A DNA stretch of 31,060 nucleotides. Source: a virus. Where the stretch lies: IMG/VR virus record IMGVR_UViG_3300040856_001006, positions 1 to 31,060 of that record; one strand, 5' to 3'. Made by a program: the position numbers and the translations under genes. A model generated the notes under the pieces. It did no database searches. It was not told the origin of the DNA and was given only the letters and a program-made list of their open reading frames with translations. This document shows, one piece after another, positions 1,791-26,636 of this stretch. Numbering within the stretch: the stretch's first letter is position 1; the number at the start of each line of letters is the position of its first letter.

Positions 1791-4700
1791 CTACTGCTCG
1801 AATTGTTCCGCAAGAATCTCAGCGGCTATGCCATACCTCTCCGCCACTTGTTGCGCTTTCTCTGGGCCGAGAACCCTGAGAGCTGCCAGGTACTCATTCC
1901 TGACAGATACTGCGCTCAGCATCATGGGAGGCACTTCGCCTTGCATCAGGTAGCCCATGTCCAGCCGGCCGAAGCCAGCCGCTTTTAAGGTCTCCTGGAT
2001 CTGAACGGTATTTAGCCCGGCTGACCTGGACGCAGAGATCAGTCTCAATGCTTCGTCAAACGTGCGCTGACGCATCTCCAGGGAGCGCTCTACGGCCTCC
2101 TGTACGCCTTCATCTCCGAACTGGTTAGGATCCCTGAGAACGCGCTTTAGCTGTGTGCTGGCCTCATTACGGCGCTCTTTGATCTCTATCGATCTAAACC
2201 GCAATGCAGTCTTGGGGTCGAATGTAGTGGTGCGGAACCCGAAAAAAGCAGCAGTCTCGTCCTCGAGGGTGTAGACCTTCCCGTATGGAGTGGCCGGGGC
2301 CTCTACAGCCTTATAGATTCTCCGGGCGTTACCAATGATCCCTGGTTCCACTGCCTTAGAAACATGAGAAGCCATATCCGCAGCTTGCTGTGCGGCAGTG
2401 TCGCTATCGTTGTAGATTGCCCCACCAGTTGCCTTCTCGTTTTTGGCCACCTCAAACAATGCTGTGGCAAGAATGTCCGATCCGAAAAATGGTCTAACCA
2501 TGTCCTTCGCCGCAGAAATAAACTCTTCTTCCCAGGGCTGGTCACGCAGAACCGCGTTGATCGGACGCTTGAAGTAGTTGTACGGATCCATAAAGGAAAC
2601 ATCTAAATACTCAAGCTGACTTTTCTGGTTGCGTCCCATATACAGGAAGTTGGAGTTTTCCATCCAGTACGGAGACATAAGGCGGATCGCCTCTTCCTCA
2701 TCATCAGAGACATCAAACATCTCTTTAGTGATGGACTGAATGGCATAAGGCATAGCCGCAGCCATACTCATCCCGGTCAACCGCTTGACACCTAGGGCTC
2801 TGCGGCCGGGAGTCTGCATATCCTGCGCGGCGATCTTAATCATGTTGTACTGAGTACGGATGATTTCAGCCGGGAAGGAGACAAATGTGCCGGCGAGCGG
2901 GAATCTCCGCAGCGCGTTCACGAAATTACCGACCAGGGAATATGTCGGATAGGTATTGCGGATGCGGTTTGCGGCCTCGACTTCAGCCTCTGCTTCGCTC
3001 ATGCCCGTACCCAAGAGGTTCGCCTTTTCGTTTTCGTATCCGACGATCTTCCAGAAGTCATCACCAAACTGGTACATCCGCTGCGCGACCGTTGCCAGGT
3101 CTTTGACTGTGCCCTGGACTGCACCCATCTCTGCGCGCTCACCATCAAACAACTTGGTTTCTTCCAGCAGACGCATCATCTCGCCGGCAAAGGGTGTGTC
3201 ATAAACCACGCCGAGCTCTTTCAGCCTTCTCAGGTACGCGAGCTTTCCTTTGTCGCCATCGCGAGTGAAGTATTCGCGCATGACCGAAAGTGATTTCTGC
3301 GTCTTTGTCAGATCCCAGTGGCCGTTCGCCATAGCGAAGAAGGCAGCAGACATGAAGTTTCTGAACTGGGTAGTCGGTGCCAGGACGGTCTTGCCGAACT
3401 TAATGCCACCGTTCAGACGAATGATCGCCTCTGGCATCCCGATAAAGTCTCGCACCTTGCCGGCGTCCGAAAATGCCTGGGCAACATCTCGAGGGGCGTA
3501 CAGACCGTTCAGCGGCTCTAGGGACTTGTTGCCTTCTACTGCGATCCTGGTGGTATTTGGTGGCCGGTTATCTTCCGTGAATAAGAAGTTACCCATCCCG
3601 ATCTCTTTCACCTTATCCAAAAACCGGGTGTTATGAATCAGCCGCGCCATCTTAGTTGTGGTCTTGGCGTAGTTGACCCGGGGATCCTGGTACTCACCCA
3701 GGAGCGCACGAATCTCAGGCGCTATGTCTTTCCGCTTCTGCAAGATCGACAAGTCTTTAGCACCCAGTTTGGACTCCTTGATGAAGGACTCCATCGATCC
3801 GTAGGCAGTGCCCTCCTTGAGAATGTCATTCAGCACCACCTCAACACGCGCAGCAATGCGATCAGGATCCATGCCCGAATCCGCCATCCGCTCGCTCAGA
3901 TATCTCCTGGCGTCATTCAGCACGTTATCCGGCACATTCTCGAACCAGTTAGCGTCATCGAACGCCCGGTACGATCGGTTTACATACTTGCCGGTGTTGG
4001 AGCGAATGACGTTAAGCAGACTGAGCTGAGATATTGCTTTCTGAATATCGTTGATTGGCTGGCGCAAATCAGTGCTCATTCCCTCTGCCGCAGCAGACTC
4101 TTGGAACTGCGCTTTTGCCTGGTCGAGAATGGCATTAGCTTCGCGCTTATTGTCTACCTCAGACGCTCTCATATAGGCGTCCAGGAGCTCTCTCTGGGGC
4201 CCTGAGAACGTCGCTAGGAGCTCCCCTGCCTGGCGATCGAGGATCTTGATGTACTGCTTAGACAGCCCATCAATGCTCTCTCTCATGCCAATGATGGCTT
4301 CCTTGACCGGCTGCGGTAGTGAGTCATCCAGCTTGCCCGCCAGGGACTCATTCAGCCTGGCTTGCTGATCTGCCGGCAACGCCTCAATGGCTCCACCCAT
4401 TGTGCTCTTAACCGCCTTCTCGAGCTGTTTGACGTAATAAACCGTATCGAATTCGACGGACGCCAGTTGATTGTCGCGGGTGATCTTCTCGTCAAATACG
4501 GCTTTAGGCAGCAACCCGCCAGGAGCGAGCTCACGCCTGGCTTTCCTCTTCACTCTCTCTACCAGGGTGACATCCTTCTCGCGGATGCGCTCGTTCTCTT
4601 TCTGGAACTGGCTAGGCTCATTCAAGAACAGGGAAATCCCTTCAGATCGCTGCTTCTCGACTGCCTGCTCAGTAATTGGCACAGCCCAACCGGCCACACC

Positions 4701-7700
4701 GATTGAGTCGAGCAATCTATTGCGATGCACAATCTTCGCTTGCTTGACTGCCTCTTCCCTGCTGTTTATCGGGGTTGCAGGAGTGCTGTACACGCGGATC
4801 TGCCCACTCATCATGGTGGGAATATCTGCCTGGGTGCCATCAGGCAACTTTCCGCGCAATCCAAGCTCAGGGTTTGGGTAGCGAATATCTACAGTCCAGT
4901 CGTTATAACCGCCCATACGGGACTCAAATCCGTCCTCCTCCATGTAGCGGCCTTTTTCTACCTTTTGAACTTGAAGCTCCGCCATAACTTTATCTACGGT
5001 CGCTAGCTCTTTATCCGCGACCTTGCCGTGTATAGTCACCGGGACAGCTTTAGCGCCGGACACCTTCTCGATCTCCTTGCGCCACTTCTGGTCATAGATT
5101 GCCGTGTAGTCTCTACCCCACCGCGTACCGGGCCGGTTCGAGCTAGTAACCACTAGGTAATCTTTGGCCTCTTCAGCCGCTGTTGCGAAGGCTCTTTGCG
5201 CCGCCAGGCGGATGTACTTATCCCCAGGCAGCGGAGGTCTAGCCGCGATGCGCTCTGAAGTCAGGCGATTTGCAGTCGCATCAACCCTCTCTTGCGCGTC
5301 CTCTAGTTGCTTTTCGTTTTCAGTAGACTCATCAAGCAGCCGACCATACTCAAAGAGCGCGTTAGCTAACTCATCCTGGCTCGGCGTGTAAGCAGCGCGC
5401 TCTGGGTTGCTAGGTGCCTGTGAAGGCGCTTCAAAGTTAAAGGATGCTGAAGCCTGCTCCGGCGTGTAACCGAGCACTCTCTGCTTGAGCGGGCCATAGC
5501 GCAAAATCGAAAGCGAATTGCCAATAGACAAGTCGTATTTCTCGAAAATGTCCATCCGGCGGTTGAGGTTTTCTGGCCCGGATATGCCCGGCGCAAAGTT
5601 TATAGAGTTGCCGTCCTCAAACATCGTGCGGAGTTTTTCACGGATAGTTTTTCTTACGCGAGGCAGGCCACCGTGCTCATCGTCTTTGATGGTTTGTTCC
5701 AGCGTTTTTGTTTGCCGGCCTTCCTGGTTTTTAATGGATGTCTGAGTCAGCCTATACAAAGCTGATTTGCCGCGTTGTGTCAGGATGGGGTCTAGCTCAG
5801 AAATCAAAAGCGCCAACTGATAGGTGTCCATCGACACAGCCCTGTCAGATGCGTAGCCATTGACCTCCATGACAGTCTGCCTGGGATTTTGGCCTCTAGG
5901 CACAATCCCCAGGGGCCCGAAATCTGTGCGCTCACCGTTCTGGTAATCATCGAACGAGGCAATGCGCTTTCTGATTTCCTCGAGCTCATTGTTGATGATC
6001 TTGCGGTCTAAATTGGCAGACTCCAAATCTTCCTTGAACCCAGCTACCCGCTCATCAAAGTCAGGATCTAGACGGGATATATCTAAGCCCTGTTTCCGCA
6101 CCGCAGTGCTCCAGTCTGACTGAGCCTCTTCTATGAAGAGCGCCTTGCCCTCGAGGTATTCGGTTCTTTGGGGTGTGGTTAGGCCATCCAGCATCGTCGT
6201 ATTGATGGCCATTGAGTCATTTCTTGCCGAAACCATATCGAAAGAGCGATCCGTGGTAATAACGTCATAGACCGTGTTGACGTCGAAGTGATCGCCCTGG
6301 TACCGGCCCCAGGCGTTGTTTTCTATCTCAAGCGTAAACTCGCGGTACTCAGACCAGTTTGTTTCACCGTCCAAGTCATCATCAAAATACTGACGGAATT
6401 TAGCGTTGCCTTTTTCGAGCACCTCCATCATTAGCTCAAAATCAGATATGAATGAACGAGCACGGATAAACGCTTCGTTTAGCCTGGTTTCATCTTCGTT
6501 AAGAACTTCCTCAAACTTGCGATCCTCACCCCGGCCGCGCCATGAATACGCAGTAACTCTCCAGCCGTAATCTTCGTTGCCTGAGATTTTGATAGACGCC
6601 AATGATTCCATATCGTCTGAGGTTTGCTGACCACCCTCCTTAACTGCTTCCTGGACGGCCTTGGAGATCGAATAAACCTGATATGGGCTCTGCGCCTCCT
6701 GTATCCGCGCCAGCTTCTCGACTTCTTCTTTCAGCGTTCCTCTTAAAGTTGCCGGCAGCTTGTCTAGCAATTCCGCAAGCATTTCAGACTGCGCCATGTA
6801 CGAAACTGGCTCGCCATCTATTTCGTCGGGAATATTGATTAACGGTTCGAGTGCCTGCGCTAAAGAAGAGTCGCTGCCGAACTTTTGGATAAGATTCTCC
6901 ACCGCACTTTCAAGCAGATAATCATTGTCACCAGCCATCGCCTCATCGACGTAGGTGTTAATCAGATCCTCGTCAACAATCACCTTCACCGAGAATAGTT
7001 TTTCATCTTCAATAGTCCCGAGATTCGTCAGGCTATCTTCATCCAGCTCATACTCAGCGACTGCCTGGTATTCCGTGTACCGGGGTCGGCCCTTCATCTC
7101 CATGTAGTCGAGGATTTGCTGACGGCTATAGCGAGTCTCTGGCTCGAGGAACTGCTCAATCCTAGAGAAACGCGCCTCATCGGGCTTCATGCCCTGGGAC
7201 TTCAAGAAGGAAAGGATCTGATCGCCGCGCACTAATGCGTCCGGGTTTCTCTTGGACGCCTTGAATATCTTGTCGCCCTTGGTCAGCAGGATCTCTTCAA
7301 TGCCGGAGTAGAAATTGAATTCATCTCGCTGGGCCCTACGCCCTTCCTGGGTGTCGGAGAATCGGGAGTCGGTGTCTGTTGTTCCACCCAGCGCCTCAGA
7401 GAACGCCGTGCGCGCCTGCTTAGCCGCATAGACGATATCTGTCACGCCCAGGTCAGCAAGCGTGGCAAAGCCGTTTCTGCGTAACCATTCGCGGATAGCG
7501 CCAATCGCTTCCTGCACTCTGAGCTTAAAGGTCTTAGATCCCTGCTCGCCCACATTAGCCAGGACTTCTTCAACCAGGATGCGGTTACGCACCTCACCGG
7601 AGTAGTTGCTCTGCTCCAGGCCGTCCCGGTAAGGAGCGATTCTGTCCTCGAGGCCCAGGTCGGCAACAATCTTGTTGAAACCTTTTTTGCCGCCCATGGC

Positions 7701-10700
7701 CACAAACATACGGTTGAGCGCCTTTTCAACGCCCTCATCCGCATACATCTTGGCAGCGCCAACGTGCGTGGCTTCGTGCAGGATAGCTCGCTCTACATGA
7801 GCCTCATCGACCATCCGGTTACGGACTATGTATACCTTGCCCTCATTGACTGCGGCGGCAACATTGTTGAGGCCCTGGTTCTTGGCATCGTCCTGCACGT
7901 TCTGCGGCAGATCATCGAACCGACGAACCACAATGATGTTGTTTCGAGCTGCCTGGTTGTCGCCAACAATGCGATCGATAGTTTCTTCAATCTTTTCAAA
8001 AGAAACCATTGGCCGGGGCGGATATGGGATATCAAACGCTTCTGCCAGCGAACGCTCGCTTTCTCTGCGCCTCTCCATAGCCTCGATGCTTTCCCGGCGC
8101 ATCTCATTTGCCCGGTCACGCGCATCCCGCATCCTGCCGCGGATGGCCCGCAGCTCTTGCATCGCCGTAGCTCTTCGCTCTTCGACGCTATCTTCTCTGA
8201 ATAGTGAGCCCTGGGTTCTGTCGGTCTGCGTTGGGTCTGCGGTGCCGGAGATCGTGCCTTCGCCGGGATCCAGGTCAAACAGTTCCCGCTCACGATCGAT
8301 CTGCGCTCTCTGCTCCGCCGCGCCGGTATCTCTCTCTGCGCGCTCACTCAGCTCTTCTTCCGTGTATGTGGTGAGGGTGTCGCGCCCCTCATCCATGAAA
8401 CTGCTTTGTGCCCGATTCTGTCCGGTACGCTCACGGTGGCGATCCATCAAAGCTGAAAGGGCTTTGCGCTCATGCACCTTCTGGCTGAAGTTCTTGTTAT
8501 CGTCGCCGTAATAGCCAGTGAACACTTCAAACTGAGGCTCAGCGTCATCGAAGTACCGGGCAATCGATGCGTCAGGTAGCGACTCTATGATCCCGATAGC
8601 CTCTGGATTCTCTGTTCGCGCTGTACGAATGATTCGGCTGTACGCGGGTGTACTGCTACGGGTGGTTTCCTCACCAATGCGTTGCGCTTCTTCAACCGTG
8701 TAGTTGCCGCCAGTCAGGTATTTAAGATCCTGGGCTCGCATCGGCCGGTAATTGGGATCGTACTTATTGGGATCGTCTGGCGGCGCTAATTCATTCGCCC
8801 GAGCTACTGCGGCGTCTAACCTCGCCCTTCTCTCAGCTAGATTCTGCTCAACAACACCGGCAGCAATTTCAGAAATGTCGGGCCCAGAACGAGAAACGGA
8901 GCCTTGTGGCTCCGTCTCAGTGTCTATCTCAGCTTGTGTGTCCGGTGGACTTATATCCGGTATTGGAGAGTCATCAAACGTCTCCGCAGACCGCAGCTCT
9001 TCCATTAAGGCATCACGCCGGTTACGCAACCCATCACGCTCTTGCGATTTTCTTCCTGGCTGGCCGGCCTCGAGGAAAGTTAAATCCTTGTTTTCTTGCC
9101 ATTGAAAAATGGCATCACGGATAATGTCGATAGTGCGGTTTGCATCTCCAACCTGGGCGTCATAGGAATCACCGCTTCTTACCAGGTAGCCTGCTTCTTG
9201 CATGAGCTCTGTAAGCTCATCGAACGTCTTTCCGTTCGCCTTGAACAGCCCGCTCGGAACGCCTTGCCCGCTCACACTGAAATCTTCGCTACGGGCATCT
9301 GACGTCTTAATCCCGCCCATCATTTTAATTGCGCTGAATAGGTCAGTATCTGCGTTATAGCCCCCGCGGGTAGTGCCACGATTAATAGCCCGGATCGCCT
9401 TATCCACCTCTGCGATTTCCGCATCGATTGTCTCAGCATCTCTAGGTGCGTCTGCAGGACGGTAATCAACCGGGATCTGAACCACATTATCTCTAACCGG
9501 GATTTCAGCCTCTGCGTCTTGGGCCGCTCGCAATGCCTGCTCTTCCCTGCTCAGACCGCGACCCTGCTCATCGATCACGCCAGCGCCAGGCCGCATAGTC
9601 TCCCGGATAGACTGGATATCCACCTCTCTCGGCGGCAAGCCTTCTGGCAATCTACCTTGAAGAGCAAAGCCAGCACCGTCCTCGATAACATCCCAGTTGT
9701 AATCCAGGTTTTCGCGCTTCACGCGAGTCAGTGCAGCGGATGCAGATTGCCTGGTCGGATAAGACTCACCATTAGCTTTGCGTAGAATCTGAGTGCTGGG
9801 TCGATCCTCGACATCCACCCCTAGCATCGGAGCCGTGGGAACGCCTCGTCGTGCCGCTACCTCATTAGGCGTCCCGGCAACATTGCCTTCTCGATCAACG
9901 GCAAAATCCATCGTGGGGCGGGGAGCTGGTTCAGGTGCCGGCTGATCTCCATAGATAATGTTCTGATCTTCAATCAGATTATCTCTGGCTCGAATGTCTG
10001 GAATATCGGCTTGCTGAGTAGTGGAGCGCGGCCTTCTCGTCTCGCCGGCAGGATCCACTTCAAAGTCTGCCGGAGCTCGCAAGGCGGGCCGCTCTGTCCT
10101 GGGTATTACCCCGGCCTGCTGATACAGCTCGATGGTTTCATCAATGCGAGGCATCAGCTCGCCTTCAAGTACGTTTACATAGTCAAACGACTGACGGCGA
10201 CCAAACTCTGGGGAAAGGATCGGCCGGGCCGCAATGTCTCTGACCTGAGAAAGTATTGGCGGGATAGCAGCGGAGTTGCCTTCAGAACCATACCGTTGAG
10301 CTTCTTGCAGCCTGGTCAACCCAAACTGCAAACGGGAAATGTCATCCTCGAGCTCTTGGGTTTGCTGTGGGTCGCTATCGCCCAGGGCTCTCTGCTCGCG
10401 TCTTGCGGTAATGATGGCCTTGTTGAGACTGGCCCGGAGGGATGCAATCAAATCCACGCCTGGAGTAAGCGCAGCCATTTGCTCTTGCCGGCGGGCTTCG
10501 GTTTCCTGGACTTGCTGCTCGAGAGTGTCAGCGATCTGAGGGGAGTCTGTCTCAATGACAGCTTGAGTGGTGGGTGTCTCTATTGTGCGAGGCTGTGAGG
10601 CGGCTTGAGAGGCCCGTGCGGCCGCGTTAGTAGCCTGGTCTAACCCATCCCCGCCCTGCGCTCTAGCTTCAGCCTGGCCCGCTCTAGCGGCCACTGAGAT

Positions 10701-11873
10701 AGGGTCGAGAATGGAGCCCAGGTCAAACGTAAAATCAGGGAAAGCAAGGCTGGCTTGCTTGGCATCTGCCTCGAGCGCGGCTCGCTGTAGCTCAGCAGCA
10801 TCAGCACCTAACCCGCCCTCGATCCTGGCGTTAAGAGAAGCAGCGCGAGCCTGCAATTCCTCTAATACCTGGCCGGGTTCCTTGCCGGCAAATGGATCGT
10901 AGTCGGATCTAAGCGCACCGCTTATACCGCCACCAACGCCACCGATCGCACCACCCAGGGCAAAGGCTGTACCAGCCGCCCCGCCGACACCCTCTAAAGG
11001 ATCCTGGTTTGGATCGACGCCGCCAACCAGAAGATTGCTGACAAGCTGACCGCCGCCTTCCTCCGCGACCTCTTGTATGCCCTCGCCCGCAAGCCCGCGT
11101 CCGAAGCCTCGTAGCAGTCCGCCCTTGCCGACATCGCCCACAACGGTTCTTTCGATCGTTCCTGGCAAGAATGTAGTAGCCGCGGAGATTGGAGCCACGA
11201 TCCCGGCAGTGATCCTCGCCTGGCGTAGCGCAATCTCTTCCTTGGCTTCATCAGCACCGATCTCGAGAGATCGATTCATGAACTCTTCGTTGCCGGCCCA
11301 TATCTCATCAGGCAAGGAAATAATTTGCTCGTATGTGCCCGTGGCAATATCTGCCGCGTTCATCGCACCGCCTGTCGCGGCGGCTCCTGCTGTACCCGAT
11401 CTGATTGCGGCCTTTGTCCCAGCGCCTAATGCTTTTGCTCCGGCACTGGTAGCAAGGCCAGCTCCGCCTGTGGTCAACAGCAAAGGCAATTGCTCAAGCA
11501 CCATATTCGCCATGAGGTACGGGTCAGTGACTGTGCCCCAAACGGCAGTAGCTGCTTGATCCCAAAACCCGTCAGCCGAATTGATGGACTCCTGCAAGCG
11601 CCTCTCGCGCATCTTCAGATCGTCGCTCTTCATTGCATCGAGCGATGCTCTATTTTCTTGCGCCCACTGGTAAACAGGGTTATCCATGTCGCCAGTAGCC
11701 AGGCCGTAAAGGCCACCCACCATAGATACCAGGGCGTTGCCTCCGCCTAAGATCGACGCCCCAAAGTCGCCGCCGATAGAGCCCTCATTTGAGAAATCAA
11801 ATGGGTCATATGCGGTCTGCCGTCCGACTGTTTGCTGGCCAGAAAAGTCGAACGGGTCGTATGCTTTAGCCAT
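1791..11873 (-). CDS. Giant polyvalent virion protein with zinc-peptidase motif (3360 aa)
   Basis: One uninterrupted frame of 3360 codons takes a third of the window. Residues 5-11 and 22-28 repeat YDPFDFS, and YDPFAG recurs at 325. Residues about 40-325 are glycine/alanine-rich with hydrophobic patches (121-150, 297-321), as in internal virion proteins that meet membranes. A linker rich in R, E and Q follows. A zincin motif, HEATH, is at 1366-1370 (bases 7778-7764), with EEVLA at 1435-1439 as a likely further ligand. Around 1550 there is a GDQILSFLKSQGMKPDEARF unit. IEEAQSDW at 1914-1921 and WGRDY near 2250 with a following YDQKWRKEIEKVSG are hallmarks I associate with 'large polyvalent protein' domains. 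Region about 2475-2552 and a long helical C-terminus (RFPLAGTFVSFPAEIIRTQY near 2990) also recur in giant phage proteins. It is probably packaged and ejected. The substrate is unknown. Confidence 0.8.
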   Translation of the reverse strand: MAKAYDPFDFSGQQTVGRQTAYDPFDFSNEGSIGGDFGASILGGGNALVSMVGGLYGLATGDMDNPVYQWAQENRASLDAMKSDDLKMRERRLQESINSADGFWDQAATAVWGTVTDPYLMANMVLEQLPLLLTTGGAGLATSAGAKALGAGTKAAIRSGTAGAAATGGAMNAADIATGTYEQIISLPDEIWAGNEEFMNRSLEIGADEAKEEIALRQARITAGIVAPISAATTFLPGTIERTVVGDVGKGGLLRGFGRGLAGEGIQEVAEEGGGQLVSNLLVGGVDPNQDPLEGVGGAAGTAFALGGAIGGVGGGISGALRSDYDPFAGKEPGQVLEELQARAASLNARIEGGLGADAAELQRAALEADAKQASLAFPDFTFDLGSILDPISVAARAGQAEARAQGGDGLDQATNAAARASQAASQPRTIETPTTQAVIETDSPQIADTLEQQVQETEARRQEQMAALTPGVDLIASLRASLNKAIITARREQRALGDSDPQQTQELEDDISRLQFGLTRLQEAQRYGSEGNSAAIPPILSQVRDIAARPILSPEFGRRQSFDYVNVLEGELMPRIDETIELYQQAGVIPRTERPALRAPADFEVDPAGETRRPRSTTQQADIPDIRARDNLIEDQNIIYGDQPAPEPAPRPTMDFAVDREGNVAGTPNEVAARRGVPTAPMLGVDVEDRPSTQILRKANGESYPTRQSASAALTRVKRENLDYNWDVIEDGAGFALQGRLPEGLPPREVDIQSIRETMRPGAGVIDEQGRGLSREEQALRAAQDAEAEIPVRDNVVQIPVDYRPADAPRDAETIDAEIAEVDKAIRAINRGTTRGGYNADTDLFSAIKMMGGIKTSDARSEDFSVSGQGVPSGLFKANGKTFDELTELMQEAGYLVRSGDSYDAQVGDANRTIDIIRDAIFQWQENKDLTFLEAGQPGRKSQERDGLRNRRDALMEELRSAETFDDSPIPDISPPDTQAEIDTETEPQGSVSRSGPDISEIAAGVVEQNLAERRARLDAAVARANELAPPDDPNKYDPNYRPMRAQDLKYLTGGNYTVEEAQRIGEETTRSSTPAYSRIIRTARTENPEAIGIIESLPDASIARYFDDAEPQFEVFTGYYGDDNKNFSQKVHERKALSALMDRHRERTGQNRAQSSFMDEGRDTLTTYTEEELSERAERDTGAAEQRAQIDRERELFDLDPGEGTISGTADPTQTDRTQGSLFREDSVEERRATAMQELRAIRGRMRDARDRANEMRRESIEAMERRRESERSLAEAFDIPYPPRPMVSFEKIEETIDRIVGDNQAARNNIIVVRRFDDLPQNVQDDAKNQGLNNVAAAVNEGKVYIVRNRMVDEAHVERAILHEATHVGAAKMYADEGVEKALNRMFVAMGGKKGFNKIVADLGLEDRIAPYRDGLEQSNYSGEVRNRILVEEVLANVGEQGSKTFKLRVQEAIGAIREWLRRNGFATLADLGVTDIVYAAKQARTAFSEALGGTTDTDSRFSDTQEGRRAQRDEFNFYSGIEEILLTKGDKIFKASKRNPDALVRGDQILSFLKSQGMKPDEARFSRIEQFLEPETRYSRQQILDYMEMKGRPRYTEYQAVAEYELDEDSLTNLGTIEDEKLFSVKVIVDEDLINTYVDEAMAGDNDYLLESAVENLIQKFGSDSSLAQALEPLINIPDEIDGEPVSYMAQSEMLAELLDKLPATLRGTLKEEVEKLARIQEAQSPYQVYSISKAVQEAVKEGGQQTSDDMESLASIKISGNEDYGWRVTAYSWRGRGEDRKFEEVLNEDETRLNEAFIRARSFISDFELMMEVLEKGNAKFRQYFDDDLDGETNWSEYREFTLEIENNAWGRYQGDHFDVNTVYDVITTDRSFDMVSARNDSMAINTTMLDGLTTPQRTEYLEGKALFIEEAQSDWSTAVRKQGLDISRLDPDFDERVAGFKEDLESANLDRKIINNELEEIRKRIASFDDYQNGERTDFGPLGIVPRGQNPRQTVMEVNGYASDRAVSMDTYQLALLISELDPILTQRGKSALYRLTQTSIKNQEGRQTKTLEQTIKDDEHGGLPRVRKTIREKLRTMFEDGNSINFAPGISGPENLNRRMDIFEKYDLSIGNSLSILRYGPLKQRVLGYTPEQASASFNFEAPSQAPSNPERAAYTPSQDELANALFEYGRLLDESTENEKQLEDAQERVDATANRLTSERIAARPPLPGDKYIRLAAQRAFATAAEEAKDYLVVTSSNRPGTRWGRDYTAIYDQKWRKEIEKVSGAKAVPVTIHGKVADKELATVDKVMAELQVQKVEKGRYMEEDGFESRMGGYNDWTVDIRYPNPELGLRGKLPDGTQADIPTMMSGQIRVYSTPATPINSREEAVKQAKIVHRNRLLDSIGVAGWAVPITEQAVEKQRSEGISLFLNEPSQFQKENERIREKDVTLVERVKRKARRELAPGGLLPKAVFDEKITRDNQLASVEFDTVYYVKQLEKAVKSTMGGAIEALPADQQARLNESLAGKLDDSLPQPVKEAIIGMRESIDGLSKQYIKILDRQAGELLATFSGPQRELLDAYMRASEVDNKREANAILDQAKAQFQESAAAEGMSTDLRQPINDIQKAISQLSLLNVIRSNTGKYVNRSYRAFDDANWFENVPDNVLNDARRYLSERMADSGMDPDRIAARVEVVLNDILKEGTAYGSMESFIKESKLGAKDLSILQKRKDIAPEIRALLGEYQDPRVNYAKTTTKMARLIHNTRFLDKVKEIGMGNFLFTEDNRPPNTTRIAVEGNKSLEPLNGLYAPRDVAQAFSDAGKVRDFIGMPEAIIRLNGGIKFGKTVLAPTTQFRNFMSAAFFAMANGHWDLTKTQKSLSVMREYFTRDGDKGKLAYLRRLKELGVVYDTPFAGEMMRLLEETKLFDGERAEMGAVQGTVKDLATVAQRMYQFGDDFWKIVGYENEKANLLGTGMSEAEAEVEAANRIRNTYPTYSLVGNFVNALRRFPLAGTFVSFPAEIIRTQYNMIKIAAQDMQTPGRRALGVKRLTGMSMAAAMPYAIQSITKEMFDVSDDEEEAIRLMSPYWMENSNFLYMGRNQKSQLEYLDVSFMDPYNYFKRPINAVLRDQPWEEEFISAAKDMVRPFFGSDILATALFEVAKNEKATGGAIYNDSDTAAQQAADMASHVSKAVEPGIIGNARRIYKAVEAPATPYGKVYTLEDETAAFFGFRTTTFDPKTALRFRSIEIKERRNEASTQLKRVLRDPNQFGDEGVQEAVERSLEMRQRTFDEALRLISASRSAGLNTVQIQETLKAAGFGRLDMGYLMQGEVPPMMLSAVSVRNEYLAALRVLGPEKAQQVAERYGIAAEILAEQFEQ

Positions 11874-11951: not shown

Positions 11952-12773
11952 CTAGCGCTGAGCAAAACTCTCGCTAAAAGCGCTAAACCCCGGATTTGCC
12001 GCTTGCGAGTTAAGCCTTTCTAAACGCCGCCTAAGCTCTTGCAGACGCGACTCAAGCTGCGGCCTGGTCGCTCCCCGCAAATTACCTGAGTCGAGTGCGG
12101 ATTCAATCTGATCGATGGCATTTTGCACTGCCGGCGCGTCCAAATCGTTTATCCCTGGTGAGGGAGGAGGAGTGGGCGGCTCCCTACCAACTGAAGAACT
12201 TGGCGAGACTAAGTCACCAATCCCGCCAAACGTAGCCACCTCTCTAACTCCAGTCAGCTTGCCATCCTCGTAAACTGGGATGCCGAGGCTAATGGCTCCG
12301 GTGAATTGGTTGGTATTAGAAATAATCTGCGATTGCTGGATTGCTCGATCGTAGATTTCGTACTGCTCTGTACCAGGCTCAAACTTATCTCTGTCGGCAA
12401 TTAGCTGGCCGATGGACGACTGCGGGAACTTCTGGCCGTAATCAAGTAATGCCTTTTGCGCGTTGACGCCCAGCGTCTGCAACGCCACTTGCTGACCAAA
12501 TTCAGTGTTGCGAACTTGATCGTCATAGGCTCTCTGTTCAGTCAGCAAGCCCTTCTGGAATTTGCGCTGTGAGGAAACATCAGCTAACTGGTCTGTGCGC
12601 GCCCTCTGGTAATCAGCGAGCTGGTCTTTCCTCGCTCTGTCATATTCCTTGTCGCGAATAGCTTGCAGGCGCTCTTGCTTCCTTTGATCTATCGCATCGC
12701 TGAACATAGCGGTGCCAATCGTGGTCAGCGCTTGAGCGCCACCAGCCAATAGTCCACCCAAAAACGCGCTCAT
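11952..12773 (-). CDS. Putative internal virion protein with coiled coil (273 aa)
   Basis: A 273-residue protein starting with a short hydrophobic helix, MSAFLGGLLAGGAQALTTIG. A long charged coiled coil of about residues 25-110 follows (DQRKQERLQAIRDKEYDRAR; DQLADYQRARTDQLAD). The middle has a small beta region (GAISLGIPVYEDGKLTGVRE), then a proline-rich linker (REPPTPPPSPG, about 196-206). The C-terminus is a second helical segment (LESRLQELRRRLERL). This arrangement, with a small hydrophobic N-terminus plus a long coiled coil ahead of a giant protein, resembles the smaller ejection proteins of podophages such as T7 gp14, but no homology is claimed. The start is the TGATATG junction with the upstream gene. 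The stop is followed by a 78-nt gap holding a hairpin. Confidence 0.65.
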   Translation of the reverse strand: MSAFLGGLLAGGAQALTTIGTAMFSDAIDQRKQERLQAIRDKEYDRARKDQLADYQRARTDQLADVSSQRKFQKGLLTEQRAYDDQVRNTEFGQQVALQTLGVNAQKALLDYGQKFPQSSIGQLIADRDKFEPGTEQYEIYDRAIQQSQIISNTNQFTGAISLGIPVYEDGKLTGVREVATFGGIGDLVSPSSSVGREPPTPPPSPGINDLDAPAVQNAIDQIESALDSGNLRGATRPQLESRLQELRRRLERLNSQAANPGFSAFSESFAQR

Positions 12774-12774
12774 A

Positions 12775-13350
12775 TCAGACTCTCATCATTTGCTGGTTAT
12801 TTTCTGCGCCTACTTCGGCGTTCTCGTCACCGACCGGGACATCCTCATCCGGGATCTGTTCGTCAAAATTATCTGGCAGAGCCTGGGCTCCTTGTGCCAA
12901 CTCGGCATCATCAACCTGGCGCATAGATGCAGCCAAAGTTTCTATCTGAGCTTTAGGCAATCCCTGCTCTCTAGCAAAAATCAACACCATTTCTTGAAAT
13001 GCGGCAGATACGTCAGCCGGGGTAATCTGCATCCCCGCTTGCTCAGCGATCTCTGCAACCTCGTTCAAGGCCACCATGCCGATAACTGAAAGATTTTCTT
13101 CTTTAATATCACCATCAGTTTCAACGTCGGATGTTTCAGCAAGCCGGTAGGCTATTTCGGCAAGTATCTTGGGTTGCGGTTGCGGAGACTTCTCAACGAC
13201 TTTGGCGATCTCTATAGCAACATCCTCTGCATACAGTCGCTGTCCTAAATACTCAATCGCTTGCTCGAGAGCCGGATCATCAAACTGGGATCCAGCGCCA
13301 GAATCGTTGGGGCCCGTGCTTTGGCCCTGTGCTTCTAGTAATCCAGCCAT
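12775..13350 (-). CDS. Acidic virion-associated protein, unknown (191 aa)
   Basis: The frame is open further upstream, but the upstream stretch lies antiparallel to nothing and inside the preceding gene, with cysteine/arginine-rich shadow-like composition. I therefore choose the ATG at 13350, which follows the previous stop in TGATATG. The product is acidic, with predicted helices at about 25-50 (DDPALEQAIEYLGQRLYAED), 60-75 and 85-150 (VGMVALNEVAEIAEQAGMQI style) and a disordered, very acidic C-terminus (about 155-191, PDEDVPVGDENAEVGAENNQ). There are no membrane segments and no catalytic motif. Its position between two candidate ejection proteins suggests an internal virion component or a chaperone for one. 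I do not recognise a family. Confidence 0.65.
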   Translation of the reverse strand: MAGLLEAQGQSTGPNDSGAGSQFDDPALEQAIEYLGQRLYAEDVAIEIAKVVEKSPQPQPKILAEIAYRLAETSDVETDGDIKEENLSVIGMVALNEVAEIAEQAGMQITPADVSAAFQEMVLIFAREQGLPKAQIETLAASMRQVDDAELAQGAQALPDNFDEQIPDEDVPVGDENAEVGAENNQQMMRV

Positions 13351-13351
13351 A

Positions 13352-14299
13352 TCAAGCCACCCCACCATCTTCAGATAGCAACGGGTTTTCATATTTACCT
13401 GTCGCCGGGTTATAAACAGGGAAAACAATCGGTGATCCCATGTTGGCCTGATAAGCGGCCAACGCCTCTCTAGCCGCCTTGTCTTGCTGCCATGCGGCAA
13501 TACCGCCGGACAACATCTGCCCGCCGCCCATAACCGCCGCTGCCTTCCCGTATGGGCCGAGGCTATTCCAACCTTTCGCAATCCCACTGCCAACCCTGCC
13601 GAGCAAGCCAGGGCTAGACGTAGACGTTTGCAATGCCGATGTGCCCGTCAGATAGTTGCCAGTAGTCGCCGCCGGAGTGGCGGCCGGAGTAGCGGCCGCT
13701 GGCGCAACCGCGGCTGGCGCTGTTGATGCTACGGTAGAGGATCCCCCTACGGCCCCGGGAGCGGCCCCAGGAGCCGTTGCAGGGGCTCCTAGCAAGTAAT
13801 TCCCACCAGTGGCCGGGGCGGTTGTAGAGGCTCCTAGTAAGTAATTCCCGCTAGTCGCCGCACCCGTGCCAGTAGCACCAGTAGCCCCTGCCGCACCAGC
13901 GTATGCCGGCGCTACTTTGGTCGCAGTCACGGCAATAGGGGTAAGCGCATTTGCTCCTGTTGCTAAACCAGCCGCCTTAGCGCCTGTCAAACCACTCGCT
14001 AAAGAGCTACCAGCTCCAGCAATGTTTCCAGATGCCAGTGCAGTACCAGCACCCGTGATGCCTCCCCAAGCGGATGCTACGCCGGCCTTAGCGCCGGCCA
14101 TAAAGCCTCCTGCTCCGGCCCCCATCCCTCCAATCCCGCCCATAAGGGCAGCACCTCCGAAATAAACCGCGGCGGCAATAGCTACGATTTTCAGAAACTT
14201 GGATTGCTTGATCTTTTTCCAGACCTTCTTGACGCCTTTCACGACGCCCTTCACGACCTTTTTAACGGCCTTTCCAATTTTTTTAACGACCTTACTCAT
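13352..14299 (-). CDS. Virion-type protein with cationic amphipathic N-terminus (315 aa)
   Basis: I place the start at the ATG at 14299, which overlaps the GNAT stop in ATGA, rather than eight codons upstream. The first 37 residues are lysine/valine-rich with a regular helical spacing (MSKVVKKIGKAVKKVVKGVV and on), much like a membrane-active peptide. A hydrophobic stretch at 37-55 follows (LKIVAIAAAVYFGGAALMGG). Residues 55-230 are Ala/Gly/Thr/Pro low-complexity sequence with three GNYLLG-type motifs at 151-156, 166-171 and 214-219. The C-terminus (about 230-315) is more ordered (GLLGRVGSGIAKGWNSLGPY; SPIVFPVYNPATGKYENPLL). Proteins of this build are found among virion genes of several aquatic podophages. 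I suggest a virion protein that touches the membrane during DNA delivery, without proof. Confidence 0.7.
   Translation of the reverse strand: MSKVVKKIGKAVKKVVKGVVKGVKKVWKKIKQSKFLKIVAIAAAVYFGGAALMGGIGGMGAGAGGFMAGAKAGVASAWGGITGAGTALASGNIAGAGSSLASGLTGAKAAGLATGANALTPIAVTATKVAPAYAGAAGATGATGTGAATSGNYLLGASTTAPATGGNYLLGAPATAPGAAPGAVGGSSTVASTAPAAVAPAAATPAATPAATTGNYLTGTSALQTSTSSPGLLGRVGSGIAKGWNSLGPYGKAAAVMGGGQMLSGGIAAWQQDKAAREALAAYQANMGSPIVFPVYNPATGKYENPLLSEDGGVA
13784..13855. repeat. 45-bp spaced duplicate encoding GNYLLG motif
   Basis: Two nearly identical 27-bp stretches (ggctcctagcaagtaattcc and following bases) begin at 13784 and 13829, giving a 45-bp period. They encode successive GNYLLGA motifs in the 315-residue protein. 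A third, more diverged copy (GNYLTG) lies near 13642-13660. Confidence 0.75.
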
Positions 14300-14736
14300 T
14301 GCTGACCTCGCACATAGGTGCAATTCATAGAAATTCGGGAGAAACCAATCCTGCCCATCAGCTTCAACAGCCGGGGATCTGTGTCCGGTTCCATTTCAAT
14401 TACTGCGACTTTGATGACCGGGCGAGACTTCACCCACTTGCCAAACTCTCTGAGGAGCTTGACGCCCTCGCCCGGCACCCTGGTGTAGTACAGCATCACA
14501 CTGCACTGCTGACGCTCGTACCAGAATGAGCGCTCTGACATAGCACCAACTGCGGCCACCACTTCACCGTCGATCTCAGAAACCCAGACAAAATGCTGGT
14601 TTCCGGCAATAGCCTCTCTAGCTGTCTCTGCCATCGAATCACGGCAGATTCGGACTGGGAGTGGATTTTGAGAAACCGACTCTACTGCGATGTCTACAAT
14701 CGCCGGCACATCAGCCAGCGTAGCGGCTCTTATCAT
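14296..14736 (-). CDS. GNAT-like N-acetyltransferase
   Basis: A 146-residue protein with the layout of a GNAT acetyltransferase. It starts with strand-helix MIRAATLADVPAIVDIAVES, continues with VWVSEIDGEVVAAVGAM (beta2-beta3-beta4), and then a pyrophosphate-binding-like loop and helix, VPGEGVKLLREFGKWV, with a shortened form of the R/Q-x-x-G-x-G/A motif. It ends with VAVIEMEPDTDPRLLKLMGR and the beta6-beta7 tail. The loop is not canonical, so catalytic activity is uncertain. GNAT-like genes are known inside structural clusters of several marine phages, but the substrate is unknown. It overlaps the next gene in ATGA, which ties its translation to the cationic protein downstream and makes that protein a possible substrate or partner. 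This last point is inference. Confidence 0.75.
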   Translation of the reverse strand: MIRAATLADVPAIVDIAVESVSQNPLPVRICRDSMAETAREAIAGNQHFVWVSEIDGEVVAAVGAMSERSFWYERQQCSVMLYYTRVPGEGVKLLREFGKWVKSRPVIKVAVIEMEPDTDPRLLKLMGRIGFSRISMNCTYVRGQQ

Positions 14737-14743
14737 TCAGCCC

Positions 14744-17700
14744 TTATGGGACTCCACCTGGAAGGTTGATCGGTACATATTGACCGTTCTCTAGGCGGTA
14801 ATAGCGCCCATCCGGGCCAATAAAGAGTGAGCCGTTTGTGTTGGCAACAGGGGTATACCCGGCGGCGTTAGATCCAGTGCCGGTTGGATCCCAAGTCTGG
14901 TTATTCCCGCCCGCATTTGTATTAGTTCCAGTCCCATTGTTAGTGCTATCCCCCGAAGTGTTTGTATCGGAGTTTGGATCCTGAGTGTCCGTTTCGGAGT
15001 CTTGTCCAGGTGGCGGCAAGTTTGAAGCGATTGTGCCTAATAGCTGTGGCATTGATGTCGCTACGTTCAAGACGTTGGTGGTCGCCGCAGTTTTTTGAGC
15101 GGAAGTTAAATTAGGATCAGCATAAATTGACGCGATAGATTCCATTGTTGAATACATAACGCTTGAGGCAGCTTGTGCATTGATTGAGTAATACTGGAAA
15201 TCTCGCTGAAGGGCATTTTCCGTTGCTCTCCAATCTTGCTCGTTTGTCTGCATATACTGCAAAAATGCCTGCTGGTCGTTTTGCATTAACTCATTGAAGG
15301 CGCGATCTGCCGCGTTCTCGCTTGCGGCAAATGCGTTCTGGTTATCCTGCATAAACTGCTGGAACGCCTGGGAATCATCCTGCAGAGACACTTGCAAGGC
15401 TCGGTCAAGCGCTCTTTCGGAGCTTTGGAATTGCCTGTCAAGCTGATTTTGAGTGCCTTGGAAACCAAACTGATTTCGCTGTAGGTCTGTCTGCAATGTT
15501 CGGTCAAGCTGATTCTCACTGCCAGTGAACGCGAACTGATTGGCCTGCAACGCACTTTGCAATTCTCTGTCCAAAGCATTTTCTGAGCTTTGGAAATCAA
15601 ATTGACGCGATTGCAATACCTCTCTGAGAATCCGATCTGCCGCGTTTTGCTCGGCAGTAAACATCTGGTCATCTTCTTGCATGATTCGTGCGTTTTCACG
15701 TTGCAAGAAATTCTGCAGAGCAATGTTTGCCTGGTTCGCATTGAACTGACCGGCTTCGTTTACAGACTCAGCATTGAAGCGATTGGTGACGTTTTGCTCG
15801 CCAACATTGAAGATATTGACGTTGGTGCCAAGAGACGCATCCTGCAAATTAGCTTGATTCTGAGCGTTCACATTCTGGGATGCCGCCTGCCGGAAAGTGT
15901 CAGCATCTTGCTGTGCGATCTGTAAAGCCTGGCTGTAAACGGCCTCTTCAGCCGCCTGGCCTGCTATAGATGAATTAAGCAATCCCCTGGCATTAGCCAT
16001 TTGCATCCCGCGGGTACGGGCTCTTGCTAACAGCGGGTTATCACTTTCGAGCAAGGCTTCAAGCCTTCTTTCCACCAGCTCGTCATCGGTAACCGTTCTC
16101 TGGGCAACTTCTGCAGAAACTGCTTCAGCTTGGCCGCTATCATCTACGGTGGTCGGAACATACGTTTCAGTTTGATCGACTGCTTGCTGTGCTGTAGTTT
16201 GCGATGGGGTTAGATCCGGCGTAGCAGTATCACCGTTGTTACCGGAGTCGCCTGTGTTGCCAGTATCGCCTGTGTTGCCAGTATCGCCTGTATTGCCAGT
16301 ATCGCCTGTATTGCCAGTATTATCAGTGCCGCCATTGTTTTGAGAATTTAGGTAAGCCTGACCCTCTGGCGAATCAATAATGCTCTGCCTAATTTCTTCT
16401 AGGCTAACTCCTGCTCTAGCTTGGTTCAGCCAGGTATTAAGACCGTCAGGAGCTGGCTGTCTGCCAAGGTGCTGTTGATAAAAGCCAGTGATGGCGTCTG
16501 TCGCAATCGCCTCATATTCTGGGGAGTTAGTTACTCCGGCGCGTATTTCTTCAATAGTCGCGCCATTCCTCATCTCGTCCAGCCAAAGATTTAAAAACTC
16601 TGGCGCAGGATCCCTGCCCAAAAAGCTCTGGTAGAAACCTTTAATCTGATCTGTGGCAGTTGCTTCATCAAAATCACCGCCAGCTCCGGTTTCGCCTGTC
16701 GTATCGCCTGCACCAGCAATTTCAGCCGCTGCTTGATCTAATGGCCCCAGGGCGGTAATTAACTGCTCCACGGTCACGCCAATGACGCCCGCCGCCTCTT
16801 GCGCGGTCAACAGATTGCTCTTCAGGCCATCAGCAATCGCGTACAGCGTATTGATGTTGTAAGTCAGCCCATCCGTTGAAACATATGTTTCGGAGTCATC
16901 GCCGCCTGAACTATCTTGACCGCCATTTTGCGCGCCCAAAAACTCAGGCGACTGCCTAATCGCTTGCTCGATTTCTGCGAGCGACATCCCGGAATCAACC
17001 CAGCCCTGGACAAACCCATCTGCTCCGTCCCTACCAAGAAGCGACTGATAAAGACCTTGAACCTCATCTGCTGTTACACCGTCACTTCCAGCCTGTGCAA
17101 GTTGTTGCGCCTCTTGAGAGTTAGCGATCGCCTGCTCAACGTCACCCAGCGTTGCACTACCGTTTGCAATAGATGCAACCCACTGATCTAAATATTCTTG
17201 CTGTGGCGCTCTCCCCAGATACTGCTGATAGAATCTAGCGACTTGAGATGAAAGCTCATACGCCCCAACAGCATCAGATCCAGCGCCAGCAGAACCATCC
17301 GCTACATCCGCTACTGCCGTTTCAGAAGCCGCAGTTTGGTTTTGTACGGCGGCAATCTGATTGTTGAAAGCACTGGTTGCGCCGGAAGCTGTTTGAGTTG
17401 CTTGCTGATTAGTTTGAGCATTTTCGGCAGTTTGTGCGGTTTGTGCGGTTTGTGCGGTTTGCGCGGTTTGCGCGGTTTGGTTTTGCGCGGAAGCTAGCTG
17501 AGCGTTAAACGCATTAGCTGCGCCGGAACTTGCTTGTGGGGTAGGGGCCGCAGATGTCTCCCCAGGCTGGCCGAACTGGCTTTCACGGTATGCAATAGCC
17601 TCTGGAGAGTTAGCGATTGCCTTGCCAATGTCAGCCATTGACGCACCGCCTTGGAGCAAGCCAGTCCAGTATTCAGCCCCACCAGCGTCCGGGGCCCGGC

Positions 17701-17932
17701 CTAACAGGTTTTGATAAGCCTGATTGACAAAATCTTGCGGGCTTGGTGCCGCAGACGGCTCACCGTTAGCCGAGACAAATGCCCTGGGCGATGACATACC
17801 ACTATTAAGCAAGCCAGCAGGCATGGATGTGCCGGGTGCGACAGGCGTTTGTGCTGGAAGCTCCAGCTTTTCATCATCTATCCTGCGGGCACCGCCACGC
17901 CTGCCCATGAAGGACATTCCGGTTGTCGGCAT
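14744..17932 (-). CDS. Large virion-type protein with DUF4214-like modules and helical repeats
   Basis: A 1062-residue protein. Five copies of a roughly 50-residue DUF4214-like unit (FYQxxLGRxPxxxxLxxW...G.sl.eI..aI..SPE) lie near residues 66-115, 226-276, 288-333, 427-473 and 478-525. Low-complexity linkers separate them: a TAQ repeat at 153-170 and an NTGDTG repeat at 537-566. A further helical unit (YNINTLYAIADGLKSNLLTA) sits at 358-405. Residues 605-700 match a segment I know from other phage virion proteins, with MANARGLLNSSIAGQAAEEA and QALQIAQQDADTF. Residues about 755-912 are a Q/N-rich amphipathic helix built of 22-residue repeats. The C-terminus carries a short SLFIGPDGRYYRLENG strand unit. 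The ATG follows AAAGGAG. DUF4214 is better known from bacterial surface or secreted proteins. The role is unknown; it may be a structural or appendage protein. Confidence 0.72.
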   Translation of the reverse strand: MPTTGMSFMGRRGGARRIDDEKLELPAQTPVAPGTSMPAGLLNSGMSSPRAFVSANGEPSAAPSPQDFVNQAYQNLLGRAPDAGGAEYWTGLLQGGASMADIGKAIANSPEAIAYRESQFGQPGETSAAPTPQASSGAANAFNAQLASAQNQTAQTAQTAQTAQTAQTAENAQTNQQATQTASGATSAFNNQIAAVQNQTAASETAVADVADGSAGAGSDAVGAYELSSQVARFYQQYLGRAPQQEYLDQWVASIANGSATLGDVEQAIANSQEAQQLAQAGSDGVTADEVQGLYQSLLGRDGADGFVQGWVDSGMSLAEIEQAIRQSPEFLGAQNGGQDSSGGDDSETYVSTDGLTYNINTLYAIADGLKSNLLTAQEAAGVIGVTVEQLITALGPLDQAAAEIAGAGDTTGETGAGGDFDEATATDQIKGFYQSFLGRDPAPEFLNLWLDEMRNGATIEEIRAGVTNSPEYEAIATDAITGFYQQHLGRQPAPDGLNTWLNQARAGVSLEEIRQSIIDSPEGQAYLNSQNNGGTDNTGNTGDTGNTGDTGNTGDTGNTGDSGNNGDTATPDLTPSQTTAQQAVDQTETYVPTTVDDSGQAEAVSAEVAQRTVTDDELVERRLEALLESDNPLLARARTRGMQMANARGLLNSSIAGQAAEEAVYSQALQIAQQDADTFRQAASQNVNAQNQANLQDASLGTNVNIFNVGEQNVTNRFNAESVNEAGQFNANQANIALQNFLQRENARIMQEDDQMFTAEQNAADRILREVLQSRQFDFQSSENALDRELQSALQANQFAFTGSENQLDRTLQTDLQRNQFGFQGTQNQLDRQFQSSERALDRALQVSLQDDSQAFQQFMQDNQNAFAASENAADRAFNELMQNDQQAFLQYMQTNEQDWRATENALQRDFQYYSINAQAASSVMYSTMESIASIYADPNLTSAQKTAATTNVLNVATSMPQLLGTIASNLPPPGQDSETDTQDPNSDTNTSGDSTNNGTGTNTNAGGNNQTWDPTGTGSNAAGYTPVANTNGSLFIGPDGRYYRLENGQYVPINLPGGVP
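15197..15670. repeat. Diverged ~66-bp repeats encoding 22-residue helical units
   Basis: This stretch encodes residues about 755-912 of the DUF4214-bearing protein. Three clear 22-residue units follow each other (MFTAEQNAADRILREVLQSR, then DFQSSENALDRELQSALQAN, then AFTGSENQLDRTLQTDLQRN, each closed by QF) and more degenerate ones follow. The consensus is xFxxxENxLDRxLQxxLQxxQ. Twenty-two residues equal two 11-residue steps, which fits a long regular amphipathic helix. Confidence 0.75.
16241..16320. repeat. 18-bp tandem repeat (NTGDTG coding)
   Basis: Four full 18-bp units of the type gccagtatcgcctgtgtt occur at 16241-16258 (diverged), 16259-16276, 16277-16294 and 16295-16312, followed by a partial copy. 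The last two differ from the second at one base. On the minus strand they encode the NTGDTG linker of the DUF4214-bearing protein. A unit length divisible by three means gain or loss of copies would keep the frame. Confidence 0.9.
17430..17474. repeat. 9-bp tandem repeat (TAQ coding)
   Basis: Five consecutive 9-bp units occur: gtttgtgcg three times, then gtttgcgcg twice. They encode the Thr-Ala-Gln repeat of the DUF4214-bearing protein on the minus strand. The near-perfect copies suggest recent slippage. Confidence 0.9.
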
Positions 17933-21722: not shown

Positions 21723-21733
21723 TGGCTAAACCT

Positions 21734-25643: not shown

Positions 25644-26636
25644 TTAGAGCGCGGTCGCTGCCACTTCCAGTCGGCACATCCAAGACTGGTTAGCGATGAA
25701 CGCCTTGTGGTAGGTTTTCCAACCAACCATGCCCTTCTGACCCAGGGGATCAGACTTATCGAGCTGGCCGGGGTTGATGATGGTGGGAGTCATAGCCTCT
25801 GCACCCTTCAGAGCAACGTGGCCGTATGCGTCCTTCGCAACGTAGACAACGGGGTAAACATCCGCAGATGAACCAGTTGTAGAAACGAAGTTGCCACCAG
25901 CAGCGCCACCAGCGTCAGCGATAGAGCTCAGTACAGGCGTCAGGATGTAACGAACATCCTCAACCTTGCCGATCTCGTAAGGCAGAGCCTGCATAGATCC
26001 GTACTGCTCAGTCGGGGTAAACCCGGCCAGGCCGCGGATGTCTGACTCAAGATCAGTGTGAGCAAACGCAATAAATGCGGCCGCTACTTGCTGAGTGTTG
26101 TACTTCACAGAAGAAGCAAGCATAGAAGTTACTTTCTTTCCGCGATTGGCCTTGAGCTGGCGGGTAATGGCGCGTTGCTTGTTCAACGTAATAGCAGTGT
26201 TTACTGCGTTACGAGCTGCGCCGTTTGCGTAAAAGACGTTGGTTCCACCCTGCAAAACACCCCACATAAGGGTTTCGATCGTTTCTGCAGCTTGCTCACC
26301 ACACATCATAGCGGCATCTTTCAGAACCGGATCTTCTGCCAGGTCATGTACAACATCGGTGATTTCAACAACATCACCGTACTGGCTCAGAGTGACTGTT
26401 ACATCTTCGTAGGTCATAGCCTTCGCAGTAGGCGGTGAGCCTTCCGTCAAAGGCGTGGTAGCTACAGCCAAAGGCACAGGGCGACGAAACTTAATTACGT
26501 TCGCCTTGTTCTTGGGCATAGGCTTGGTCATGCCAAACTTGCTCAAACACAAGATTGGCTCAGCGTGGGCAAGCATTTCTTTCGCGGCGAAAGCGTTAGT
26601 ACGCTGCGAAATGCTGGCGTAAGTAGAAGTTGCCAT
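25644..26636 (-). CDS. Major capsid protein, N4 gp56-like (HK97 fold)
   Basis: This 330-residue protein makes the icosahedral shell. The sequence matches the pattern I know for the N4-gp56 family of capsid proteins. It has an N-terminal MATSTYASISQRTNAFAAKE, then a FRRPVPLAVATTPLTEG segment, then the strongly conserved YGDVVEITDVVHDLAEDPVL helix region (about residues 86-105). A C-terminal block, GWKTYHKAFIANQSWMCRLE, ends the protein. There is no N-terminal prohead-protease extension, in line with a separate scaffold gene. The start at 26636 follows AGGGGAG. The gene sits between scaffold and head-completion genes and is followed by a strong terminator, as expected for the most abundant virion protein. 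The family call is confident. It is made from recalled sequence features and not from a search. Confidence 0.93.
   Translation of the reverse strand: MATSTYASISQRTNAFAAKEMLAHAEPILCLSKFGMTKPMPKNKANVIKFRRPVPLAVATTPLTEGSPPTAKAMTYEDVTVTLSQYGDVVEITDVVHDLAEDPVLKDAAMMCGEQAAETIETLMWGVLQGGTNVFYANGAARNAVNTAITLNKQRAITRQLKANRGKKVTSMLASSVKYNTQQVAAAFIAFAHTDLESDIRGLAGFTPTEQYGSMQALPYEIGKVEDVRYILTPVLSSIADAGGAAGGNFVSTTGSSADVYPVVYVAKDAYGHVALKGAEAMTPTIINPGQLDKSDPLGQKGMVGWKTYHKAFIANQSWMCRLEVAATAL

Follow-up and report, generated by a model that had tools for sequence, protein, structure and literature searches.

The window analysed here, a 31,060-base virus fragment, carries one exceptionally large minus-strand open reading frame at 1791-11873, whose intact reading frame encodes a protein of 3360 amino acids, as the preliminary description of this DNA had claimed. 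This multidomain protein lies among late genes, with portal, capsid, tail, and terminase genes encoded in the same window (Table 1). Related contigs L013-L015 also keep the frame intact and are 87-88% identical to it across residues 318-3360. The capsid protein was correctly described as N4 gp56-like (TIGR04387, E 3e-95), and the strings quoted from the giant (IEEAQSDW, GDQILSFL, MKPDEARF, and YDQKWRKEIEKV) all occur in its translation. N4-gp56 capsids and ejection genes at the end of the structural block are widespread, and the argument that the giant occupies the slot of the N4 virion RNA polymerase (vRNAP) is therefore weak on its own. Megablast of the giant ORF against phage records returned no match, a PDB sequence search gave no meaningful match, and no Pfam or NCBIfam model scored above cut-off on the protein. 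Downstream of the giant gene, positions 298-723 encode an endonuclease-family protein (phrog_452). On the far side of the acetyltransferase gene, 14744-17932 encodes a protein of 1062 aa, probably a tail fibre, in which four DUF4214 stretches and a collagen-like repeat occur. The GNAT-type acetyltransferase itself sits within the structural block, and Pseudoalteromonas phage vB_Pun_Y3 (proposed Poorviridae; Y3) has a counterpart at the same place that is 26% identical.

Table 1. Features of the window discussed in the text, with the basis of each assignment.
Feature	Position	Strand	Basis
Probable giant polyvalent ejection protein, 3360 aa	1791..11873	-	ORF; intact in L013-L015
Residues 36-323, predicted membrane-inserting N-terminal module, homologue of N4 vRNAP ~114-448	10905..11768	-	Profile searches, shuffles
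Residues 330-1289, polar linker/cargo region without assigned domain	8007..10886	-	Composition; no Pfam model above cut-off
Residues 1289-1496, putative zincin-like metallopeptidase domain	7386..8009	-	Profile common to other giants; AF2 pLDDT 72
HEATH motif, residues 1366-1370	7764..7778	-	H1366, E1367, H1370 invariant in 15-sequence alignment
E1436, candidate third zinc ligand	7566..7568	-	Invariant in 15-sequence alignment
Residues 1533-1640, GDQILSFL...MKPDEARF block	6954..7277	-	Matches GVKxEE block of L017 (sequence comparison)
Residues 1840-2300, EE(A/I)QSDW-YDQKW domain	4974..6356	-	Conserved blocks in L012/L015
Residues 2432-3360, predicted helical C-terminal virion module	1794..4580	-	PHROG 22602; polyvalent-protein C-terminus fold
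Small gene upstream of giant, candidate ejection partner	11952..12773	-	Co-diverges with N-terminal module; similar position in Y3
Candidate ejection partner ORF, true start uncertain (overlaps next ORF)	12775..13593	-	Co-diverges with N-terminal module
Gly/Ala-rich gene, one hydrophobic segment, candidate ejection partner	13352..14323	-	Co-diverges with N-terminal module
GNAT-type acetyltransferase, upstream flank of exchanged block	14296..14736	-	~90% identical in relatives
Major capsid protein, N4-gp56 family	25644..26636	-	TIGR04387; 50% identical to Y3 MCP

The N-terminus of the giant is the part that connects it to N4. Residues 141-313 align with residues 263-438 of N4 gp50 at 31% identity, and colinear alignments were found between several giants and several vRNAPs. 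SEG masking drops the blastp match between the window protein and N4 below cut-off, the segment being Gly/Ala-rich. Because of this composition, the match was retested by HMM search, reversal, and shuffling, and it holds. An HMM of the vRNAP N-terminus, run against 2916 ORFs, ranked the window giant next after the 12 vRNAPs themselves (E 9.5e-14), and the reciprocal HMM, built from 18 giants, recovered 7 of 12 vRNAPs at <1e-6. HHalign of the two N-terminal profiles gave a probability of 98.4% over 261 columns, compared with 1.1% for the reversed alignment, and the real sequence scored 66.7 bits, where the best of 1000 shuffles reached 7.7; column shuffles gave a probability of at most 0.6. This sequence evidence marks residues ~36-323 as a homologue of the N-terminal domain with which N4-type vRNAPs enter membranes. 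The N4 domain, hitherto a puzzle, inserts into membranes and was not resolved in a recent cryo-EM study; the counterpart of the module (~114-448) includes putative membrane-spanning helices at 224-278 and enters nanodiscs (PMC12633501). Hydropathy analysis of the window module found no classical transmembrane segment. By the preliminary description's own measure, a significant match of any segment to N4 gp50 would speak against its reading. Such a match exists, but only in the non-catalytic N-terminal part, the RNAP core being unmatched.

The genes upstream of the giant appear to share the history of this module. Relative to L013 and L015, the three upstream genes have 48-65% amino acid identity and residues 1 to ~320 of the giant fall to 0-50% identity per 20-residue step, while the stretch compared beyond residue ~380 is mostly 95-100% identical. 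The break in divergence at residue ~320 is sharp and falls where the vRNAP homology ends, a boundary that was located independently. Thus, as read from the aligned sequences, the three genes diverge jointly with the N-terminal block, as one block, and we infer that candidate pore genes and a membrane module may have been swapped as a unit. The corresponding cassette in N4 is gp52-gp51-gp50 (PMC12633501), and N4 gp50 is likewise the last gene of its structural/ejection block, with small genes upstream. No sequence match was found between the upstream genes of the window and N4 gp51 or gp52; the gene at 13352..14323 is 44% identical over 111 aa to a Y3 gene at 21519-22472.

Beyond the shared N-terminus, the window giant has no detectable RNA polymerase. 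A core profile of 12 Schitoviridae vRNAPs (N4 residues 998-2103), which are 17-73% identical to N4 across the core, gave E 0.24 and an HHalign probability <1% against the giant, and the ExDGxxxG motif, present in 12 of 12 vRNAPs, has no occurrence in it. These results bear out the earlier statement that the protein lacks a polymerase. The Rx3Kx6-7YG and HDS motifs, both of which had been listed as missing, are indeed absent. The companion statement that T/DxxGR is missing was wrong in that form, since the motif occurs three times (DEQGR 768, TQEGR 1508, and TRWGR 2250), though 2.6 are expected by chance, so this motif is uninformative either way; ExDGxxxG, taken with the core profile, tests the point better. 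The core profile was also without a match in the rest of the window record, in 21 related records, and in Y3, with N4 and phiCB2047-B matched as positive controls, and PF00940 was found in neither the window, 15 related records, nor Y3. By the Schitoviridae criterion of an N4-gp56 capsid together with a vRNAP, the window fragment has the capsid, and no vRNAP was found within it. The vRNAP C2 region was considered as a homologue of the giant's C-terminal module and rejected (HHalign 1-2%).

The giant could in principle be a divergent N4-type vRNAP whose polymerase domain has drifted past recognition, as would follow from the published PSI-BLAST identification of Y3 ORF30 as an "RNAP" (PMC11654794) and as the N-terminal homology might be taken to indicate. 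The vRNAP match nonetheless ends at residue ~323, a core HMM spanning such diverse vRNAPs and the search for ExDGxxxG both fail on the giant, and the core is missing from Y3 and the 21 relatives as well. Moreover, the region between the N-terminal module and the zincin-like domain is polar in the window protein, and its composition suggests that residues 330-1289 are probably largely disordered; the same interval in relatives holds ParB, LPD, or methylase domains. A drifted polymerase is, on this record, highly improbable.

The C-terminus belongs to a different set of phage proteins. PHROG 22602 matches residues 2601-3318 (E 1.5e-79), and the module is 41% identical to the Y3 protein (ORF30/31) over its C-terminal 920 aa. 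It is also homologous, at 26% over the C-terminal ~700 aa, to Cellulophaga phage phi18:3 gp123 (PHROG 22602), which its record lists as a virion protein by experimental MS/MS proteomics; unlike the window giant, gp123 has only 1935 aa, and no match to the N-terminal module was found in it. In tblastn searches against phages, the N-terminal, zincin, and EEAQSDW regions were each without a match, so only the C-terminus ties the giant directly to named phages by this method. An AF2 model of the C-terminus (pLDDT 80) had no usable Foldseek match in the PDB; in BFVD it gave 76 matches at E<=0.001, down to 1e-36, many of them named LPD-containing and others large polyvalent, ART-PolyVal, or Zeta toxin proteins. 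The assignment of this region as a virion or ejection-type module is supported by these matches, and the polyvalent character attributed to the protein is borne out by a fold common to polyvalent C-termini and by the domains of its homologues. Relatives sharing the C-terminus carry ART-PolyVal, LPD5, LPD1, LPD23, MuF_C, ddrB-ParB, InPase, RadC, or methylase domains; others are 1250-1400 aa long and apparently contain little else. No curated Pfam model for LPD, MPTase, or ART domains exceeded cut-off in the window giant itself, though its homologues do pass. The counterpart of the EEAQSDW block in L017, in the same relative position, reads EEIQSDWHQ, and a deeper search with this region gave close relatives only.

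The HEATH site reported earlier is present at residue 1366, in a protein whose 12 histidines give a chance expectation of 0.004 HExxH motifs, and it is kept in distant relatives. Across 15 divergent sequences, most of them 14-28% identical to the window protein, H1366, E1367, H1370, and E1436 never vary; relatives mostly have HExxxH (HETIAH, HEVVGH, and HELIGH), and the window protein and its closest relatives carry HExxH. Polyvalent MPTases with HEXXXH have been described (PMC5512222). Among giants with the N-terminal module, most also contain a domain of this zincin-like family (residues 1289-1496 in the window protein). An AF2 model of the domain reached a moderate pLDDT of 72 and has a secondary-structure order compatible with a zincin, yet a Foldseek search of the PDB with this model returned no zincin. 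Pfam metallopeptidase models likewise gave no match to the domain, and MuF_C was rejected as its identity for want of a match. Of the earlier "zincin" claim, then, the conserved H, E, H, and E stand and the fold was not recovered, so that the putative metal site has the backing of conservation but not of fold. In L021, L022, and L115 the HE..H motif is lost: the domain is kept, EEILVH replaces the motif, and a separate HEWFH site lies beside it, which suggests that this zincin-like copy is catalytically dead. L012, which also has no HExxH, was not scored as a loss since its ORF begins past the domain.

N4 gp50 has an HExxH of its own at residue 2228, as do the other 11 vRNAPs, and the window HEATH domain shows a weak HHalign match to the vRNAP HExxH domain (probability 77%; controls <=0.3%). 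The proposal of a peptidase in place of the polymerase accordingly stands in part: the polymerase is missing and a putative peptidase site is present, but N4 gp50 carries an HExxH domain itself and has a homologous N-terminus. Because of that N4 domain, the comparison is better put as the same membrane domain and a similar putative peptidase, with the polymerase missing. The novel element is the use of the vRNAP N-terminal module without an RNAP, and the contrast of peptidase for polymerase was overstated. The vRNAP of Roseovarius podovirus RPP1 (L095, FR719956.1) has an ART-like segment at 1020-1131 and a second HExxH (HEMAH) at 1291; its ART had already been noted (PMC5512222).

Whether the domain acts as an enzyme in the host can be weighed from these data. 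The giant might have a structural role only, as a core or channel protein in the manner of T7 gp16, its HExxH and LPD domains being relics without an enzymatic role after injection. The conserved C-terminal virion module, the absence of a detected HExxH from short family members of ~1250-1400 aa, the loss of HE..H in the three relatives, and fold searches that confirmed no enzyme fold in the window giant would all fit such a protein. The invariance of H, E, H, and E across 15 divergent sequences and the diverse, enzyme-like cargo domains of relatives argue otherwise and make this reading quite unlikely. Somewhat less unlikely, but still disfavoured, is a peptidase whose site of action is the head before packaging, and not the host, through autoprocessing such as has been inferred for P1 DdrB. 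P1 DdrB has an MPTase domain and is cut before packaging, and a long polar stretch precedes the zincin-like domain of the giant; on the other hand, the N4 vRNAP, with its HExxH domain, is packaged uncleaved (PMC5512222).

The best explanation of the whole, and a likely one, is that this giant is built of modules, belongs to the polyvalent class of phage proteins, and acts in ejection, being injected without a polymerase. The proposal builds on sequence-level results, namely the modules and their homologies, the lack of an RNAP in this protein, and the joint divergence of N-terminus and upstream genes. The giant would be packaged in the head and exit with the DNA, and its N-terminal ~320 residues would enter the host inner membrane beside a pore formed by the products of the small upstream genes. 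The zincin-like domain (H1366, E1367, H1370, and E1436) may cleave a polyprotein or a host protein, with the EEAQSDW/LPD region as presumed cargo, and the helical C-terminal ~930 residues would serve packaging or ejection, replacing the C2 region of N4. With no polymerase delivered, early transcription would presumably fall to the host RNAP. Most relatives sharing this C-terminus are temperate phages with an integrase, and no N4-type RNAP is encoded by any that were searched. Of 15 related records >40 kb, 11 had an integrase match that passed its cut-off, close relatives sit in genomes of Pseudothauera, Azoarcus, Pseudomonas, Halopseudomonas, and Marinomonas, and Y3 has O-, P-, and Cro-like genes. 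Because the relatives are mostly temperate and those searched are without N4-type or PF00940 RNAP, they presumably depend on host RNAP, and the different early-infection strategy envisaged earlier is plausible.

Set against known systems, the giant resembles N4 gp50 (Schitoviridae vRNAP, phrog_2206) in its N-terminal module, HExxH domain (C1 in N4), and similar size, and differs from it in having no polymerase core, ExDGxxxG, or N4-like C2 and in possessing a C-terminal module of its own. With the phage polyvalent proteins (Iyer et al. 2017, PMC5512222) it shares large size, multiple domains, late-gene setting, an MPTase-like site, LPD-type blocks, and the C-terminal fold. In that study, searches that took the N-terminal region and polymerase of N4 as queries returned only RNAP-containing relatives, whereas the window carries an RNAP-less version, and the N-terminal link between such a giant and vRNAPs appears to be new. 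Burkholderia phage JC1 (Bcep22-like) offers a parallel by description as a virion polyvalent protein: its gp69, a DarB-like antirestriction-type polyvalent protein, was detected in virions of this temperate podophage (PMC9144972).

These comparisons suggest one delivery chassis with exchangeable cargo. A broader proposal, to which we give an even chance, is that the N4 vRNAP is one member of a superfamily of injected giants, sharing the zincin-like domain and an N-terminal module co-inherited with upstream pore genes. The polymerase would be one kind of cargo, interchangeable with others (ADP-ribosyltransferase, ParB, methylase, and LPD), and temperate phages would use the chassis polymerase-free. 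The occurrence of the N-terminal domain on RNAP-less giants, co-diverging with three upstream genes, is independent evidence for viewing it as an ejection module and not as a piece of the polymerase, and these giants offer natural variants for testing how proteins of several thousand residues cross the envelope. They also carry a warning that "vRNAP" annotations derived from full-length profiles can be wrong. In a screen of N4-like viruses, ExDGxxxG was present in only 983 of 1,984 long vRNAP-profile matches (PMC10654107).

The Poorviridae "RNAP" hallmark, Y3 ORF30, looks like an example. Only two segments of the Y3 protein were found to resemble vRNAPs, the N-terminal module (residues 131-384 against phiCB2047-B, E 6e-8) and the ART segment common to RPP1. 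The Y3 assignment probably rests on the shared N-terminus, which suggests that the Y3 protein is the same kind of RNAP-less giant. It shares with the window giant the zincin-like family, the N-terminal module, and gene order, and differs from it in having ddrB-ParB, two ART matches, methylase, LPD5, LPD1, and a second HEWWH site, none of which is found in the window, where the EEAQSDW domain occurs instead. The Y3 giant is, in addition, split into ORF30 and ORF31 by an exact 1001-bp tandem duplication (L002, OR779980.1, 33394-35394) that is probably an assembly artefact; the published "ADP-ribosyltransferase AMG" (ORF31) is therefore the C-terminal part of the giant.
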